DNA of 5,279 nt, from positions 1 to 5,279 of the forward strand of contig JAFGQQ010000013.1 of assembly GCA_016935595.1 (NCBI GenBank). The letters are read 5' to 3'. Source of the stretch: Bacteroidales bacterium. GTDB taxonomy: Bacteria; Bacteroidota; Bacteroidia; Bacteroidales; UBA10428. The position numbers were made by a program, and so were the translations under genes. The notes beneath the pieces are model-generated. The model did not search any database. It was not told the origin of the DNA and was given only the letters and a program-made list of their open reading frames with translations. Positions 28 to 5,279 of the stretch are shown piece after piece (the first letter of the stretch is position 1; each line of letters starts with the position of its first letter).

Positions 28-855
28 ATGAATAAACTGTGTGTTTTCCAATCCTTATTTTTAATCTTCTGTTTATTTTATTTTCAAAATTCGTATTCAC
101 AATCTGCCAGTACGTATTTTCCATATACGTTATCCAAATCCGACTATATTATAATGCCTGCCGGTTTAGCAATTTTTGCTTCAGGAGAAGCATTAAATCA
201 TTATTCAAATACGATTACACTAGATGATATTTCGAGGTTAAATGGAAAAATAATTAACCGGTTCGATAAGCCAGCCATAAATTATCTTTCTGCCAAGCAT
301 AGCAAGTTCAGCGATTATTCAAGGGCTGCTTTGATATTATCGCCTTCAATTATAATGCTTCACCAGTCAAAAAATTTCAGGTTTAAAAATTCTTTCACTT
401 TAGGTATAATATATTTAGAATCTATGCTCTGTTTAAAAGGTTTAAACGATATTGTTAAAAACCTTACTGCGCGTCCCAGGCCTTTTTTATATAACCCCGA
501 TTTGTCGGTACAGGAAAGATATGATTATCTGGAAACAACCAGTTCATATGGTTCATTTTTTTCGGGCCATACCTCAACAGCATTTTTATCGGCTGTATTT
601 CTTTCTAAAACATTCACCGATATATATGGAAAATCGGCATGGAATGCTGTTATATGGACTGCTTCCCTTTCTGCTGCATCAATTACAGGTTATTGCAGGG
701 TTGCAGCAGGCGAGCATTTTCCAACCGATGTATTAACAGGGGCAATAATTGGCAGCCTTTTCGGATACATTTTTCCAATAATTCATAATAACCAAAATAA
801 AAATATCCAAACAACATTTACACTCAATACCTGCAAAATAACTTATTCTTTTTAA
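28..855 (+). CDS. PAP2-family membrane phosphatase (phosphatidic acid phosphatase type 2 / lipid phosphatase-like)
   Basis: This 275-residue protein should remove phosphate from a lipid or isoprenoid phosphate at the outer face of the inner membrane. The three PAP2 catalytic motifs are visible. Motif 1 is K144-x6-R151-P152 (KNLTARPRP). Motif 2 is FSGH at 178-181, with Phe replacing the usual Pro. Motif 3 is CR-x5-H-x3-D, with R224, H230 and D234, and Cys223 replacing the usual Ser. H181, R224, H230 and D234 supply the expected acid phosphatase centre. Residues 1-25 look like a signal peptide (hydrophobic core, then NSYS before Gln26), followed by several hydrophobic segments. The ATG at 28 is the first start after an in-frame TAA at 13 and has no Shine-Dalgarno, as is usual in Bacteroidota. 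Substrate is not determinable: undecaprenyl-PP, lipid A (LpxE/LpxF-like) or phosphatidate are all possible. Family call is secure; specificity is open. Confidence 0.9.
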   Translation: MNKLCVFQSLFLIFCLFYFQNSYSQSASTYFPYTLSKSDYIIMPAGLAIFASGEALNHYSNTITLDDISRLNGKIINRFDKPAINYLSAKHSKFSDYSRAALILSPSIIMLHQSKNFRFKNSFTLGIIYLESMLCLKGLNDIVKNLTARPRPFLYNPDLSVQERYDYLETTSSYGSFFSGHTSTAFLSAVFLSKTFTDIYGKSAWNAVIWTASLSAASITGYCRVAAGEHFPTDVLTGAIIGSLFGYIFPIIHNNQNKNIQTTFTLNTCKITYSF

Positions 856-882
856 TGGCTCTTTGGTAAAAATTTATATTTT
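851..882 (+). promoter_or_regulatory. Candidate Bacteroidota-type promoter for the corA leader
   Basis: TTTA at 851-854 and TATATTTT at 875-882 are separated by 20 bases. They match the Bacteroidota primary sigma consensus (TTTG, about 20 bases, TAnnTTTG) with one mismatch in each box. A start near 888-892 would give a leader of about 120 nt that contains the short ORF at 909 and both RNA stems. In such AT-rich DNA a match of this quality can occur by chance. The overlap with the hairpin at 862-895 means one of the two assignments may be wrong. Confidence 0.4.
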
Positions 883-895
883 TACACCAAATTTT
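862..895 (+). terminator. Possible terminator hairpin after the PAP2 gene
   Basis: TTTGGT (862-867) pairs with ACCAAA (886-891), and AAAAAT (868-873) pairs with ATTTTT (878-883). The loop is 4 nt and there is a 2-nt bulge at 884-885. A short run of T follows at 892-894. The hairpin begins 7 bases after the PAP2 stop codon. It is AT-rich with a weak U-tract, so it may terminate poorly. It overlaps the candidate corA promoter. Confidence 0.4.
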
Positions 896-908
896 AAATA
901 AAAAATAT

Positions 909-959
909 ATGGACGAAGGCCCGTATCCGAGTAAAAATAATTTTTTAACTTCTCATTAA
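909..959 (+). CDS. Candidate 16-residue leader peptide upstream of corA (MgtL/CorL-like in idea)
   Basis: ATG at 909 opens a short frame, MDEGPYPSKNNFLTSH, ending at TAA 957-959, 49 nt before the corA start. The product begins with two acidic residues followed by prolines at 5 and 7. In enterobacteria the mgtA leader peptide MgtL (MEPDPTPLP...) has an acidic/proline N-terminus that destabilises the translating ribosome when Mg2+ is low, and Salmonella corA has a leader ORF called corL. I see no sequence homology beyond this compositional pattern. Codons 2-5 form the 5' arm of a 10-bp stem whose 3' arm starts 3 nt past the stop codon, so translation would control that stem. There is no Shine-Dalgarno; the upstream sequence is A/T-rich (TTTTAAATAAAAAATAT), which is normal for this phylum. 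No homology search was possible, and a frame this short could be chance. Confidence 0.5.
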   Translation: MDEGPYPSKNNFLTSH

Positions 960-971
960 GGGGGCTTTCGT
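913..971 (+). promoter_or_regulatory. Leader stem A: 10-bp helix enclosing the leader ORF
   Basis: ACGAAGGCCC (913-922) pairs with GGGGCTTTCG plus T (962-971). This gives ten consecutive pairs with one G-U wobble (918-966), closing a 39-nt A/T-rich loop. The 5' arm lies inside codons 2-5 of the short ORF and the 3' arm just after its stop, so a translating ribosome would open the helix. There is no U-run after the 3' arm, so it is not a standard intrinsic terminator. The GC-rich pairing stands out in an otherwise very AT-rich intergenic region. Confidence 0.6.
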
Positions 972-974
972 ATT

Positions 975-1002
975 GCCTTCTTTAATGATTAATGAAGGAG
1001 GC
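975..1002 (+). promoter_or_regulatory. Stem B: hairpin covering the corA Shine-Dalgarno
   Basis: CCTTC (976-980) pairs with GAAGG (994-998). After one T-T mismatch (981/993), TTAA (982-985) pairs with TTAA (989-992) around a TGA loop. Nine pairs in total mask the 5' half of the corA ribosome-binding site GAAGGAGG (994-1001). The same CCTTC, extended by G975, can instead pair with GAAGGC at 915-920 in the leader ORF. That alternative excludes both stem A and stem B and would free the ribosome-binding site. This is a plausible translational switch; direction and trigger are not shown by the sequence. Confidence 0.55.
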
Positions 1003-1008
1003 ATAAAC

Positions 1009-1938
1009 ATGTTAAAAATTTTCCAAACTTTTGCAGGTTTTGTTGAATTACCTCAAACCCAAGACGGATGTTGGATAAATGTTGTCCAACCCGATCAGAA
1101 TGAAATTGACAGGCTGCACAACGAATATAAAGTTCCAAAAGAGGTAACCCAGGATATACTTGATGCTGATGAACGCCCTCGTGTTGAATTTGATGATGAC
1201 TGGTCGCTTGTTATACTGCGAATACCAGTTGCAAGCGCCAACAACGGAGTGCCTTTTAATACTGTACCACTGGGGATTTTCATGACCGAACAATTCACTA
1301 TTACATTATGTTCAGTTAACAATGAAGTATTGCCTTTTGAACAACCTTCGGTTTATAAAGAACATTATCAACAAGTTACTGATGGGCTAAATTTCATTTT
1401 CAAGTTATTTTTGCGCTCAGGCAACACCTACTTACGTTACCTGAAACAAATCAACCAACAAACCGGACAAATTGAACAGGACCTTGAAAAATCAATCAGG
1501 AACAAGGAACTAAACAAACTGCTTAAAATGGAAAAATGCCTGGTATATTTTGTCACATCAATTAAAGCTAATGAACTGGTTTTAGCCAGGCTTCATAAAT
1601 CGCGTAAAACAATGAGCGAAATAAATGAAGACCTTTTCGAGGATGCCCGTATCGAAAATAAACAGGCGCTTGAAATGGCCCAGATATACTCGGACATACA
1701 AAGTGGTATGATGGATGCTTTTGCTTCGGTTATTTCCAATAACCTGAACGTAGTGATGAAACAATTAACATCTATTTCTATTATATTAATGATCCCTACA
1801 TTAATAGCCAGCATTTATGGGATGAATATCCCAAATTATATGGAAAATAGCATGTTTGCTTTTCCACTGGTTATTATCGGATCTATATTACTTTCTGTTT
1901 TCGGGGTGATTTTATTCCGTAAAAAACGGTGGTTCTGA
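1009..1938 (+). CDS. corA: CorA-family magnesium/divalent-cation channel
   Basis: This 309-residue inner-membrane protein belongs to the CorA/2-TM-GxN family, pentameric channels that admit Mg2+ (in some members Co2+, Ni2+ or Zn2+). The N-terminal cytosolic domain carries the family pattern around residues 43-60 (LDADERPRVEFDDDW). A long helical stretch follows, then TM1 (about 253-270) ending in the signature Y270-G271-M272-N273. A short loop and TM2 (about 283-303) precede the basic tail RKKRWF. The loop after GMN reads IPNYMENS, so the MPEL motif of classical proteobacterial CorA is absent, as in many CorA-like proteins; cation choice is therefore less certain. I chose ATG 1009 because GGAGG (997-1001) sits 7 nt ahead. 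Upstream in-frame TTG 973 and ATG 985 have no ribosome-binding site and fall within the leader stem. It lies behind an unusual structured leader, which suggests control by Mg2+ or by translation. Confidence 0.92.
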   Translation: MLKIFQTFAGFVELPQTQDGCWINVVQPDQNEIDRLHNEYKVPKEVTQDILDADERPRVEFDDDWSLVILRIPVASANNGVPFNTVPLGIFMTEQFTITLCSVNNEVLPFEQPSVYKEHYQQVTDGLNFIFKLFLRSGNTYLRYLKQINQQTGQIEQDLEKSIRNKELNKLLKMEKCLVYFVTSIKANELVLARLHKSRKTMSEINEDLFEDARIENKQALEMAQIYSDIQSGMMDAFASVISNNLNVVMKQLTSISIILMIPTLIASIYGMNIPNYMENSMFAFPLVIIGSILLSVFGVILFRKKRWF

Positions 1939-1970
1939 TTTAAAACAGTACAGCATTTTTTGTAGTTTTG
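1939..1970 (+). promoter_or_regulatory. Candidate promoter for the PfkB kinase gene
   Basis: TTTA at 1939-1942, then 20 bases, then TAGTTTTG at 1963-1970. The second box is a full match to the Bacteroidota -7 consensus TAnnTTTG, and the first differs from TTTG by one base. The predicted transcript start, near 1976, would leave about 30 nt before the ATG at 2005. It begins directly after the corA stop codon, so the kinase gene may be transcribed on its own. Confidence 0.5.
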
Positions 1971-2004
1971 AATGAACAATTAATACAAAAACCATTCATT
2001 TTTT

Positions 2005-2916
2005 ATGAATTATGTTTACTGCTATGGAATGATTGCAAAAAGCACAGTTTACCTGCTTGACAAGCATTTTAACTATCCACTGCCAAATCAATATGCCGAA
2101 ATAGGGCAAGCATATCCATCGCTTGGGGGCGAAGCTGTTAATACTTCCATAATGTTATCAAAACTCGGAGTCGCTGTAAAATTAGACGGGATATGGATTA
2201 ATGAAAATCATAAGGATATTATATTCTCATTACTTAAACCTTATAGAATAGATATTTCGCGTTTAAGTGTTAAAAAAGGAAACATTGGTTGCGAGGAAAT
2301 TGTGATTACAGATAAAAAAAGCCGCACAGTATTCGGAAATTATGCTTCTTTTCATAGTGGCCCCCTGCAATTAAATTTTCCAAATGAAACCGATATAAAA
2401 AATGCATCGTGGGTTTCAATTGATCCTTATTTTAAGGATATTTCAGGACAAATTGCCTTGCTATGCGTAAAACATAAAAAACCTTATGTAACCATCGATT
2501 GCAAATATAATGATTACCTGGCCCAAAATGCAGAAGCTATAATTATTTCTCACGAACTTCGCGATCAGGCCTACCCTGAAGCTGATTATAATATCTTGTT
2601 TAAAGAATATCAAAAAAAATGTAAAGGATTAATACTATTTTCATGGGGTGAAAAGAACCTTTGGTATGGACGGCAAAACCAAACAATAAAAAAATTTACC
2701 CCTTATAAAGTCAAACCAATTGACACAACCGGGGCCGGAGATTCTTTCCGCGCAGGAATCATATACGGTTTAATGAACTCCTGGGACGATGAGCGTATTA
2801 TTGAATTCGCATCGGCAGTTGCTGCAAATGTATGTTTGTCAATTCCACATACATTAAACGCCCCTGAATTGAATGAAATATTATCTTTTCTAGAAAAAAG
2901 GACAACTAATATATAA
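2005..2916 (+). CDS. PfkB/ribokinase-family carbohydrate kinase
   Basis: This 303-residue cytoplasmic kinase should transfer phosphate from ATP to a sugar or nucleoside hydroxyl. The N-terminal PfkB signature is visible as G41-G42-E43-A44-V45-N46 followed by a hydrophobic helix and LG. The C-terminal signature is D240-TTGAGD-246 followed by SFRAG, where G243-A-G245 forms the anion hole and D246 is the catalytic base. Both halves of the active site are intact and the length is normal for the family. Substrate cannot be assigned: ribose, fructose, 2-keto-3-deoxygluconate, adenosine and others use the same motifs, and no sugar pathway gene is adjacent. The start at 2005 has no Shine-Dalgarno; the next in-frame Met (residue 9) is possible but would cut into the first strand. 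A weak AT-only hairpin (ATTCAT 1994-1999 with ATGAAT 2005-2010) covers the start codon. Confidence 0.88.
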   Translation: MNYVYCYGMIAKSTVYLLDKHFNYPLPNQYAEIGQAYPSLGGEAVNTSIMLSKLGVAVKLDGIWINENHKDIIFSLLKPYRIDISRLSVKKGNIGCEEIVITDKKSRTVFGNYASFHSGPLQLNFPNETDIKNASWVSIDPYFKDISGQIALLCVKHKKPYVTIDCKYNDYLAQNAEAIIISHELRDQAYPEADYNILFKEYQKKCKGLILFSWGEKNLWYGRQNQTIKKFTPYKVKPIDTTGAGDSFRAGIIYGLMNSWDDERIIEFASAVAANVCLSIPHTLNAPELNEILSFLEKRTTNI

Positions 2917-2919
2917 CTT

Positions 2920-2952
2920 CAGAAATTAATTGATTCATTCTGTTTTTCTTTT
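2920..2952 (+). terminator. Weak candidate intrinsic terminator after the kinase gene
   Basis: CAGAA (2920-2924) pairs with TTCTG (2938-2942) around a 13-nt loop. A T-rich tract, TTTTTCTTTT (2943-2952), follows. It starts 4 bases past the kinase stop codon. The stem has only five pairs, so efficiency is doubtful, but position and U-tract fit. Confidence 0.35.
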
Positions 2953-2973
2953 AAGGAACTATTTTTATATTTA
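2943..2973 (+). promoter_or_regulatory. Weak candidate promoter for the sensor gene
   Basis: TTTT at 2943-2946 and TATATTTA at 2966-2973 are spaced by 19 bases. Each box has one mismatch to the Bacteroidota TTTG / TAnnTTTG consensus. A transcript would start near 2980, about 25 nt ahead of the ATG at 3004. The first box overlaps the T-tract of the possible kinase terminator. Evidence is weak because the whole gap is AT-rich. Confidence 0.3.
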
Positions 2974-3003
2974 TATCCTTTTATTGTTCAATTCTGCTGA
3001 AAT

Positions 3004-5279
3004 ATGAAAATAAAACTAAGCATAAATTCCAAAATCCTGATATACATCCTGGGAACATCAATTTTTGTTTTTGTTTTTTCTTTTGGCTATACGACCTTTA
3101 AATTCCGGCAAATGTCCTTACAGGAAGCCAAACAATTAACCGACAGTTATGCCAGGGAATATGCCAATTATACAAGTTCCAGGCTGGTTGGCTTTATCAA
3201 TGATATTCAAACCATAGGAAATGCATTCGAATCATTCGATGCAATTGAGGAAACAAGCCGAAGGGCTTATTTCAATGATTTACTTATACATACTCTTAAA
3301 AAAAACGAAGAAATCATTTCAGCCTGGACAACATGGGAAAGCCGTTCAATAGACAACCTTGACGAGCAATATAAAGGACAATATGGAAGTACAGTTATAG
3401 GTAATTATGCAGTATTGTTTTATAAACAAGGAAATTCAATTGTATTAGATTCAACCCAGGAATCGAACCCTGATGAAGTTTTTGCCGGTGAATTTTATAA
3501 TATCCCCAAAAAAAGGGGGAAAATAACCATTATGGAACCTTACTATTATTCCTATTCTAAAGATGGCAGGAATAAAGTCCTTGAAACAAGCGTTGTTGTA
3601 CCCGTAATGCACCAACAAAAATTTATGGGGGTTGTTGGCCTTGATGTAGAACTCGAAACCTTTAAAAAAGTCACCGATAATATTAAGCCATTTCAGGAAA
3701 GCTTTTCTTTCCTGGTTTCAAATGAAGGCAACCTTGTTACCCATAATAAAAAAGTTTTTATCGGAAAGAACCTCGCAGAAATATATCCTGAAATAGTTGA
3801 AAAATATAGCCTGTTAGAAAACATTCAAAGTGGCAATACAATTTCTTTTACCGAAGATATTGATAAAGATGGAAACCTGTATTATTTATCATTTGTGCCG
3901 GTTGAGCTGGGAAAATCCGGAACACCCTGGTCGCTGGCTATTGTAGCTCCTCTTTCAAATATATATAAAGAAGTAAACGAAAAATTTTTGTATACTTCAA
4001 TTATTGCTTTCATAAGTATTCTTATATTAGCATTAGTTACCCGTCTCATATCAAAGAGCATAACCAACCCTCTAGAAAAAATAGATGCATTGCTTAAAAA
4101 ACTTAATAAAGCCAATGTTGAAGAAATAAAGCAAATAGCCAAAACCCATAAAGATGAAATCGGTGAAATAGCCGATTCGGCTTTCACCCTTATTACATGG
4201 CTAAATACCACAACAAATTTTGCCTACAGTTTAAAAGAAGGAAAACTTGATTATGAATATACTATAATTAATGACGATGATATCTTAGGAAAATCGTTGC
4301 TCGAATTACAACATACACTTAAAGAATCGAAAGCCGGTGAAGATGAACGCAGAATAGAAAACGACAGGCGCAACTGGGCAACAGCCGGTGTTGCCAAGTT
4401 TGGTGAAATAGCCCGGACAACATCCGATAATATGGAAAACTTTACGTATGAAGTAATAAGCAATTTGGTTAAATATTTAAATGCCAATCAGGGTGGGGTA
4501 TTTATATTAAATGAGAACGAAGAAGATTTTCACCTTGAGCTTACAGCAGCATTTGCCCTTAACCGTAAAAAAGCTCTTGTAAAGAAAATATATCCCGGAG
4601 AAGGACTTGTAGGTTCATGTATCCTTGAGAAAAAAACAATATACCTAACTCAACTGCCTGACGATTATATTGAGATAACTTCAGGACTAGGTGAAGCTAA
4701 TCCATCTTACCTTTTAATTGTGCCCCTGCTTCTTAACGATGCAGTTTATGGCGCTCTCGAAATAGCTTCTTTTTACCCGATAGAAAAATACCAGGTTGAG
4801 TTTATTGAAGAAATTGCAAATATTATTGCTTCAACGGTTAATAATGTGCGGATTAACGAAAAGACAAATAAACTCCTGCACGAATCAAAATTCTCAAGTG
4901 AACAGTTGCAACAACAAGAAGAGGAAATGCGGCAAAATTTTGAGGAATTACAGACAACACAGGAAGAACTTATCCGAACCAAAGAAGCCACAGAGAATAA
5001 AATAAAAGATGTAATAGCCATTCTTGAAGGTTTACCCTATGGATTGATTACTACAGACGAATCGGGAACTATTATTGATTATAATGCAACCCTGTTAAAA
5101 ACTACAGGTTATCAGAAAGGAGAACTTGACGGAGATAATATTTCTTCTCTGTTTAAACTTATTAAAGCGGAAAAAATTCAGGCTGGCACACAAATGAAAA
5201 CCGAAATAACTACCTCCGAAAATTCTTCTTTTGAAGTAACTGTTTTAATGAATAAAATTAAAAAACACGACCAGGTTAA
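3004..5279 (+). CDS. Membrane-bound sensor: dCache-HAMP-GAF-coiled coil-PAS protein, 3' end outside the window
   Basis: An uninterrupted frame of 758 codons runs off the window, leaving two bases (AA) of the next codon. TM1 is at about 11-32. A periplasmic double-Cache ligand-binding domain follows (about 36-325), with the dCache features YNIPKKRGK-x4-EPY (165-180) and GVVGLD ending at D214, and a membrane-proximal lobe around 234-316. TM2 is at about 328-349. HAMP follows, with N355-P356 and DEIGE (384-388). A second HAMP-like segment lies at about 408-440 (KEGKLDYEY, DDDILGKSL). A GAF domain spans about 475-615. A Gln/Glu-rich coiled coil (about 617-668) leads to a PAS domain (about 668-755). 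ATG 3004 is the first start after an in-frame TGA at 2998. No histidine-kinase, cyclase or phosphatase domain is reached, so the output is unknown; a kinase, a SpoIIE-type phosphatase or a bare PAS end are all possible. Small-molecule sensing in the periplasm is inferred from the Cache domain. Confidence 0.88.
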   Translation, partial: MKIKLSINSKILIYILGTSIFVFVFSFGYTTFKFRQMSLQEAKQLTDSYAREYANYTSSRLVGFINDIQTIGNAFESFDAIEETSRRAYFNDLLIHTLKKNEEIISAWTTWESRSIDNLDEQYKGQYGSTVIGNYAVLFYKQGNSIVLDSTQESNPDEVFAGEFYNIPKKRGKITIMEPYYYSYSKDGRNKVLETSVVVPVMHQQKFMGVVGLDVELETFKKVTDNIKPFQESFSFLVSNEGNLVTHNKKVFIGKNLAEIYPEIVEKYSLLENIQSGNTISFTEDIDKDGNLYYLSFVPVELGKSGTPWSLAIVAPLSNIYKEVNEKFLYTSIIAFISILILALVTRLISKSITNPLEKIDALLKKLNKANVEEIKQIAKTHKDEIGEIADSAFTLITWLNTTTNFAYSLKEGKLDYEYTIINDDDILGKSLLELQHTLKESKAGEDERRIENDRRNWATAGVAKFGEIARTTSDNMENFTYEVISNLVKYLNANQGGVFILNENEEDFHLELTAAFALNRKKALVKKIYPGEGLVGSCILEKKTIYLTQLPDDYIEITSGLGEANPSYLLIVPLLLNDAVYGALEIASFYPIEKYQVEFIEEIANIIASTVNNVRINEKTNKLLHESKFSSEQLQQQEEEMRQNFEELQTTQEELIRTKEATENKIKDVIAILEGLPYGLITTDESGTIIDYNATLLKTTGYQKGELDGDNISSLFKLIKAEKIQAGTQMKTEITTSENSSFEVTVLMNKIKKHDQV

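Follow-up and report, generated by a model that had tools for sequence, protein, structure and literature searches.

The short open reading frame (ORF) ahead of corA in this Bacteroidales genome is probably part of a translation-initiation attenuator of corA that follows a trp-like plan and probably senses Mg2+ as MgtL does. Comparison with related loci shows the ORF itself, its acidic/proline start, a set of predicted, mutually exclusive hairpins, a Shine-Dalgarno (SD) sequence within segment 4 of that set and a leader stop codon near segment 2. The window, by which we mean the entire 5,279-nt stretch analysed, contains the following features:

28-855, PAP2-family gene
875..884, + strand, probable -7 box of the promoter that serves leader and corA, TATATTTTTA (TAnnTTTG in degenerate form)
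909..959, + strand, leader ORF, MDEGPYPSKNNFLTSH, with stop codon TAA at 957-959
912..923, + strand, segment 1, the conserved acidic/Pro core made up of codons 2-5 (Asp-Glu-Gly-Pro; from conservation and pairing)
913-922 with 962-971, + strand, possible pairing of segment 1 with its partner (from folding and weak covariation)
953..965, + strand, segment 2, which contains the leader stop and is predicted to pair with 975-988 in the ON form (from a blocked fold and covariation)
974..988, + strand, segment 3, which is predicted to pair with segment 2 or segment 4 (from folds and covariation)
993..1003, + strand, segment 4, which contains the corA SD AGGAGG (996-1001) and is predicted to pair with 974-984 in the OFF form
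1009..1938, + strand, corA, encoding a 309-aa CorA-type divalent cation channel (from the GMN motif, Pfam and CorA structures)
2005-2916, PfkB-type kinase gene
3004 onward, gene for a dCache/GAF/PAS protein, of which only the start lies in the window

The CorA sequence of the window carries the GMN motif and matches Pfam PF01544 (E 4.4e-53) and solved CorA structures (best E 1.7e-24). Against the NCBIfam CorA equivalog TIGR00383 it scored 136 bits, below the cut-off of 200.75 bits. The leader has 16 codons starting with ATG at 909, and 49 nt (960-1008) separate its stop from the corA ATG at 1009. Direct reading thus bore out the preliminary description in the position and length of the ORF and in its placing of Asp, Glu, Pro and Pro at residues 2, 3, 5 and 7.

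We compared 81 corA upstream regions, consisting of the window and the best 80 of 159 confirmed CorA-relative loci. The preliminary description had proposed such an alignment, and in it the short ORF was conserved, its changes were biased toward synonymous ones and the acidic-Pro start was kept. Rather than being broken by frameshifts or loss of the ATG in relatives, the ORF was retained in 78 of the 81 regions, 84-107 nt ahead of corA, with 36-60 nt between leader stop and corA start; the leader of one relative (L047) starts with TTG. The relatives are mostly Bacteroidota (Prolixibacteraceae, Marinilabiliaceae, Marinifilum, Ancylomarina, Draconibacterium and others), and further records are labelled Mesonia, Yeosuana, Cytophagales, Ignavibacteriales, Chlorobiota and, in one case, Desulfobacteraceae. 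The interpretation of the ORF as a Mg2+ leader is supported by this sequence conservation and by analogy with known leaders. Our findings go beyond the preliminary description in the competing hairpins that extend to the corA start, the unusual SD and a second leader family.

Three of the 81 relatives (L005, L022 and L031) lack a leader. At L022:1880-2000 the bases for Asp-Glu-Gly are gone after the ATG and the hairpin arms and an SD-like stretch are retained, a possible natural loss of the leader. L031 is on a contig labelled Desulfobacteraceae and has a corA 69% identical to that of the window; perhaps the contig is mis-binned or its corA was transferred.

Covariation of the proposed helices was tested on a 78-row alignment (A1) against 500 shuffles and against slid versions of each helix. 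In helix 2:3, 93.3% of cells were paired and 38 cells had changed on both sides, compared with 9.2 in shuffles; in helix 3:4, the values were 83.3% and 39, compared with 16.1. Measured by paired cells, double-changed cells or covariation score, neither helix was matched by any of the 500 shuffles, with the caveat that related sequences can outscore shuffles in this tool without structure. Slid versions of both helices had fewer paired cells and lower covariation scores. Other measures separated them less clearly: the number of 2:3 pairs changed on both sides was reached by 44 of 500 shuffles (and was 8 in the version slid by -3, compared with 7), the further pair types of 3:4 were reached by 35 of 500, and the version of 3:4 slid by +1 tied at 39 double-changed cells. 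Helices 2:3 and 3:4 share segment 3 and are therefore mutually exclusive, as in MgtL-type and trp-type leaders.

In the window, folding predicts a helix 1:2 that joins the acidic/Pro codons to the loop following segment 2; its covariation in the alignment is weak. The helix had 65.0% of cells paired (63.5 in shuffles) and 11 double changes (5.8 in shuffles and 15 in one slid version), and its further pair types were reached by 249 of 500 shuffles. Partner swapping among 65 of the 78 sequences, with near-duplicates removed, favored the sequence's own partner for both segment 1 (-12.8 vs -11.7 kcal/mol) and segment 4 (-13.8 vs -11.4 kcal/mol), with 0 of 5000 permutations doing as well in either case. 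Codon choice also favors 1:2 (-12.2 vs -10.6 for synonymous recodings, p 2e-9), with a smaller shift toward a control target as well (-7.8 vs -7.2). Unaided, RNAalifold proposed 2:3, and 3:4 was absent from its result; positions 880-1015 of the window fold with a z of -3.8.

We then modeled the accessibility of the corA SD with a ribosome placed on the leader. The mean probability that the SD is unpaired was 0.053 in the free RNA, 0.206 with the ribosome on codons 2-6 and 0.049 with the ribosome at the stop, and this probability exceeded 0.5 in 1, 9 and 1 of 78 sequences, respectively. The modeled effect of ribosome position on SD exposure thus goes in the predicted direction but is modest. 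Among the 12 folds shown with the first 30 nt blocked, four, including that of the window, went to 2:3 and eight stayed in 3:4. Equilibrium folding was rejected as the entire switch: without segment 1, the SD-hidden form stays favored by a mean of 6.6 kcal/mol (6.9 in the window). Because equilibrium favors the hidden form, the ON form would have to be kinetic or held by translation.

In a trp-type attenuator, a ribosome on a short ORF determines whether segments pair as 1:2 and 3:4 or as 2:3. The leader described here has the same alternatives and differs in that no terminator-like site was found in 850-1060 and its codons are not for an amino acid that its operon makes. We consider it very likely that the leader controls the corA start through competing hairpins, and its likely signal, by analogy, is Mg2+, since the gene encodes CorA and the leader resembles MgtL. 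The attenuator plan and the folding runs lead us to infer that corA would be freed by a ribosome halted at the start codons. The proposed sequence of events has three states. In a leader without a ribosome, 1:2 and 3:4 would form and the corA start would be hidden (OFF). With ample Mg2+, the ribosome would clear Asp-Glu-Gly-Pro, reach the stop and cover segment 2, which would leave 3:4 in place (OFF). At low Mg2+, intrinsic destabilization of the ribosome would make it pause, or repeatedly start and drop off, at the acidic/Pro start; with segment 1 occupied and segment 2 unreached, 2:3 would form as the RNA emerges and corA would be translated (ON). More CorA would then bring in Mg2+.

A second leader family repeats this plan and was counted in favor of the attenuator. 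In an even sample of 148 genomes of the phylum, a CorA reached E 1e-80 or better in 10. Five of these had an acidic leader: one (G001) is of the DEGP type, and the rest (G029, G061, G072 and G146) belong to a second type. Across these four, the leaders read MDDYYYSLVLN, MDDSQRKYY and, in two, MDDYYSEMLN, and their CorAs are 45-50% identical to that of the window. Three more second-type loci were found in the order of G072, one with leader MDDYHPERNNEFL and two with MDDYHPKRNYQLL; their CorAs are 57-59% identical to that of G072, and this CorA group is probably Flavobacteriales. The leader was absent in the other five genomes (G125, G071, G118, G133 and G015), whose CorAs are 46-47% identical to that of the window (leaderless loci at this identity: L120, L122, L123, L127 and L128). 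These five, together with the three leaderless relatives among the 81, were counted against the attenuator. Loci L129-L138, with CorAs of 32-40% identity, showed no convincing leader.

In the second family (L149-L154; MDDYY, MDDSQ and MDDYHP types), a hairpin is predicted over the corA start codon, and inspection revealed no SD. In all seven second-family leaders, part of the corA start region is base-paired in the free fold (unpaired probability 0.10-0.56), and six of the seven have an alternative hairpin when the start is left free. The best fold switched with the ribosome on codons 2-6 and reverted with the ribosome at the stop in two of the seven (L153 and L154); in the other five, moving the ribosome did not switch the fold. 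Placing the ribosome on codons 2-6 raised the probability that the start is unpaired in two of the seven only (L152, 0.28 to 0.34; L153, 0.26 to 0.43) and lowered it in L149 and L150. A further search for this family in 199 genomes of the family of G072 (E 1e-40) returned the seed alone.

TAnnTTTG is the promoter box of Bacteroidetes. An exact copy lies 27-41 nt ahead of the leader ATG in 72 of 78 sequences, the window being among the six without one, compared with 181 of 4000 random stretches of 60 nt. A search for the -33 element farther upstream was negative (TTG in 10 of 71), as was one for a sigma-70-like promoter in 850-1060. The corA start is set apart by its SD: the five-base SD core is present at corA in 66 of 80 relatives, at 3 of 169 neighboring ORFs of at least 150 aa and at 0 of 77 leader ATGs. 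Similarly, an SD:anti-SD energy of -7 kcal/mol or better was found for 69 of 81 corA genes, 10 of 169 neighboring ORFs and 0 of 78 leaders (corA mean -9.2 kcal/mol; window -12.4 kcal/mol). The SD columns of segment 4 are near-invariant (A 75, G 78, G 76, A 76 and G 66 of 78), and C and T replace each other more often at the partner positions in segment 3. Because the SD columns vary so little and their partners more, the SD seems to be held for its own sake.

According to PMC9976891, Bacteroidia ribosomes mostly ignore SDs, as bS21, bS18 and bS6 hide the anti-SD, so that the role of segment 4 is uncertain. The same paper reports that bS21-free Flavobacterium ribosomes favor strong SDs and that SDs characteristic of bS21 control lie below -13 kcal/mol; corA does not appear in its main text. 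corA is thus marked out by a conserved strong SD among bacteria whose ribosomes mostly ignore SDs. Two other readings draw on this feature. In one, which we regard as unlikely, Bacteroidales corA would sense Mg2+ through the ribosome twice: the acidic/Pro nascent chain would destabilize the 70S ribosome on the leader and thereby open the competing hairpin, and the strong SD would be used well only by ribosomes with a freed anti-SD, e.g., those that have lost bS21 at low Mg2+. If true, this, together with a second family that hides the start codon, would amount to a separate invention of Mg2+ sensing through ribosome stability. In the other, the make-up of the ribosome would be the main sensor, with bS21-less ribosomes starting at the corA SD and the leader only tuning the response. 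The frequency and near-invariance of strong corA SDs and the preference of bS21-free ribosomes speak for this reading. However, the second family keeps the same leader plan without an SD, and the corA mean of -9.2 kcal/mol falls short of the range given for bS21 control in PMC9976891; we judge this reading quite improbable.

The leader peptide bears marks of selection. Residue 2 is acidic in all 78 leaders (Asp in 72 and Glu in 6), 77 of 78 have at least two acidic residues among residues 2-4, and Pro5 is kept in 76. Residues 2-5 read DEGP in 54 leaders, DDGP in 8, DEDP in 3 and EEDP, ESDP and DEVP in 2 each, with DEGL, EADP, DAGP, EEGP, DESP, DDTP and DEGS seen once each. Pro7 of the window is variable in relatives (His 55, Pro 9 and Tyr 9 of 78). 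Mean pairwise identity is 0.886 for codons 2-5, 0.666 for codons 6-8 and 0.475 for codons 9-12, with 0.487 at third positions of residue-keeping corA codons as the reference. Of the 4 leaders without an acidic residue 3, 3 have one at position 4, compared with 5 of the other 74; this association gives a Fisher p of 0.003, and the 2-3 independent pairs on the tree are too few for significance. The swap yields E-x-D-P, as within the EPDP of MgtL. In the Pro5 codon, identity is 0.97 at each of the first two bases and 0.55 at the third, where a quick CorA tree (22 of 78 inner branches starred and 33 open) shows 19 or more changes. The N-terminal acidic/Pro motif is thus maintained by selection on the peptide, as in MgtL-type leaders.

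Third bases are also held in codons 2-4 (identity 0.86, 0.79 and 0.95), compared with 0.487 at third positions of residue-keeping corA codons, which indicates a constraint at the RNA level there too. This constraint and the conserved hairpins would fit a metal-binding riboswitch in which Mg2+ or Co2+ is bound directly by the RNA and the ORF has no role of its own. Such a riboswitch is very improbable, since the third base of Pro5 is nearly free, the acidic class survives Asp/Glu swaps, the variable codons are stop-free and there is no Rfam match. Five Rfam matches at E up to 10 were all under the gathering score, and the only one over the leader was RefA1 (E 6.9, - strand).

The remaining explanations fare worse. 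The leader could be a coupling or reinitiation device that merely delivers ribosomes to corA and senses nothing, as its shortness, its closeness to corA and the lack of a five-base SD at the leader ATG (0 of 77, compared with 66 of 80 for corA) might suggest. With 36-60 nt and hairpins lying between stop and start, and with the kept acidic/Pro core and competing hairpins left unexplained, we hold this to be highly unlikely. Classical amino-acid attenuation, in which stalling for want of charged Asp, Glu, Gly or Pro tRNA would turn corA on, typically has the 1:2, 2:3, 3:4 architecture. Its chances here are slim indeed: most leaders have a single codon for each of Asp, Glu and Pro, there is no run of one residue, Asp and Glu are interchangeable, and a cation channel gene is no amino-acid gene. 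There is next to no prospect of a chance ORF, which is refuted by its presence in 78 of 81 regions and by codon-level selection: in codons 8-12, none of 390 in-frame codons is a stop, compared with 46 and 64 of 390 when the other two frames are read. Nothing was found that speaks for chance.

When the bases of codons 8-12 were shuffled, a stop arose in a mean of 38 of the 78 sequences (minimum 28), and the actual frame is open to codon 13 in all 78. Judged from these codon patterns, the leader is almost certainly a selected coding element. Of the 78 leaders, 38 end at codon 13, 32 at codon 17 and 8 at codon 15, 16 or 18, and the stop has switched position at least 10 times on the tree. It begins within segment 2 in 39 leaders, on the first base of the segment in 1 and 7-8 nt short of it in 38. 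Columns 40-46 of alignment A1 hold a conserved TATTAAC-like stretch, even when its TAA is outside the leader frame.

Among known systems, the closest likeness is to MgtL of Escherichia coli and Salmonella. According to PMC11282234 and PMC11552253, the EPDP motif of MgtL causes ribosome drop-off at low Mg2+, efficient translation of MgtL represses mgtA, and EttA and bL31 matter for the E. coli system. Both systems have a short leader with an acidic/Pro start ahead of a Mg2+ importer and two mutually exclusive RNA forms, and E-x-D-P is common to EPDP and the MESDP and MEADP variants found here (same papers). MgtL acts via Rho-dependent termination (PMC11282234 and PMC11552253), whereas the helices of the present leader extend to the corA start. 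The present leader is also distinguished by about 100 nt from leader ATG to gene, by occurring in another phylum and, in a comparison made against Rfam families, by having no match there.

CorL of E. coli and Salmonella is likewise a uORF ahead of corA with two alternative folds, and its efficient translation is inverse to corA; it differs in a conserved N-terminal region with a single proline, in fewer acidic and Pro residues than MgtL and in an output by Rho (PMC11552253). The corA RNA motif is confined to Gammaproteobacteria (PMC6429828). The SD-based autoregulation of rpsU (bS21) also involves a strong SD in the SD-poor phylum Bacteroidota; its signal is ribosome make-up, and a leader peptide is unmentioned in the portion of PMC9976891 examined. 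The corA SD described here, in contrast, is an arm of competing hairpins. The preliminary description knew of no Bacteroidota counterpart, and in the literature searched, from which subscription papers were largely absent, we recognized no description of a Bacteroidota corA or Mg2+ leader. In the main text of a large human-microbiome structured-RNA survey (PMC8040213), corA occurs only inside a surname.

Mg2+ sensing by ribosome instability on acidic/Pro leaders has been described for enterobacteria. The same peptide logic, kept by selection and with its own RNA output, in another phylum would suggest a general principle with possibly more than one origin. These Bacteroidota would thereby have a switch for Mg2+ homeostasis, and our analysis suggests that they read Mg2+ shortage through their own ribosomes, with parts unlike those of E. 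coli and Salmonella. Dozens of natural leader variants (E-x-D-P, DEGP, DDGP and MDDYY) would be at hand for testing the peptide rules of ribosome destabilization.

Covariance model R1 matched in 1 of 296 genomes of the phylum, with 13 of 173-3113 first-look candidates scored in the genomes listed, and says little about spread. A promoter-plus-leader pattern matched in 40 of the 296 genomes, as did a reversed control pattern in many; the match in G001 was the sole one identified as a corA leader. No credible acidic leader was found at 67 loci of the other CorA types of the phylum (at least three of them duplicates, L141/L207, L143/L215 and L144/L156, and with another ORF picked in L088 and L226). 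The acidic pattern at two of the 67 was rejected, the two being near-identical and, by inspection, antisense to a neighboring gene. MDNSKRDYG, at L141:1262-1291 ahead of a 339-aa CorA of another type, was missed by the pattern and is probably due to chance, since the next relative, L208, shows none.

In a set of 24 genomes, where 150 of 908-4987 candidates per genome were scored, R1 gave 16 weak matches (E 0.002 to 0.96); two of these, L202 and L203, were considered as leaders of other genes and look like chance. R1 also gave 25 strong matches in this set, every one at a corA start and two of them in G382 (L045 and L046). The Ignavibacteriales assembly PCUD01 has these two corA loci, with leaders MDEGPNKNNLKY at L045 and MDAGPKYFNLTN at L046, the latter being the only one of the 78 with just one acidic residue at positions 2-4.
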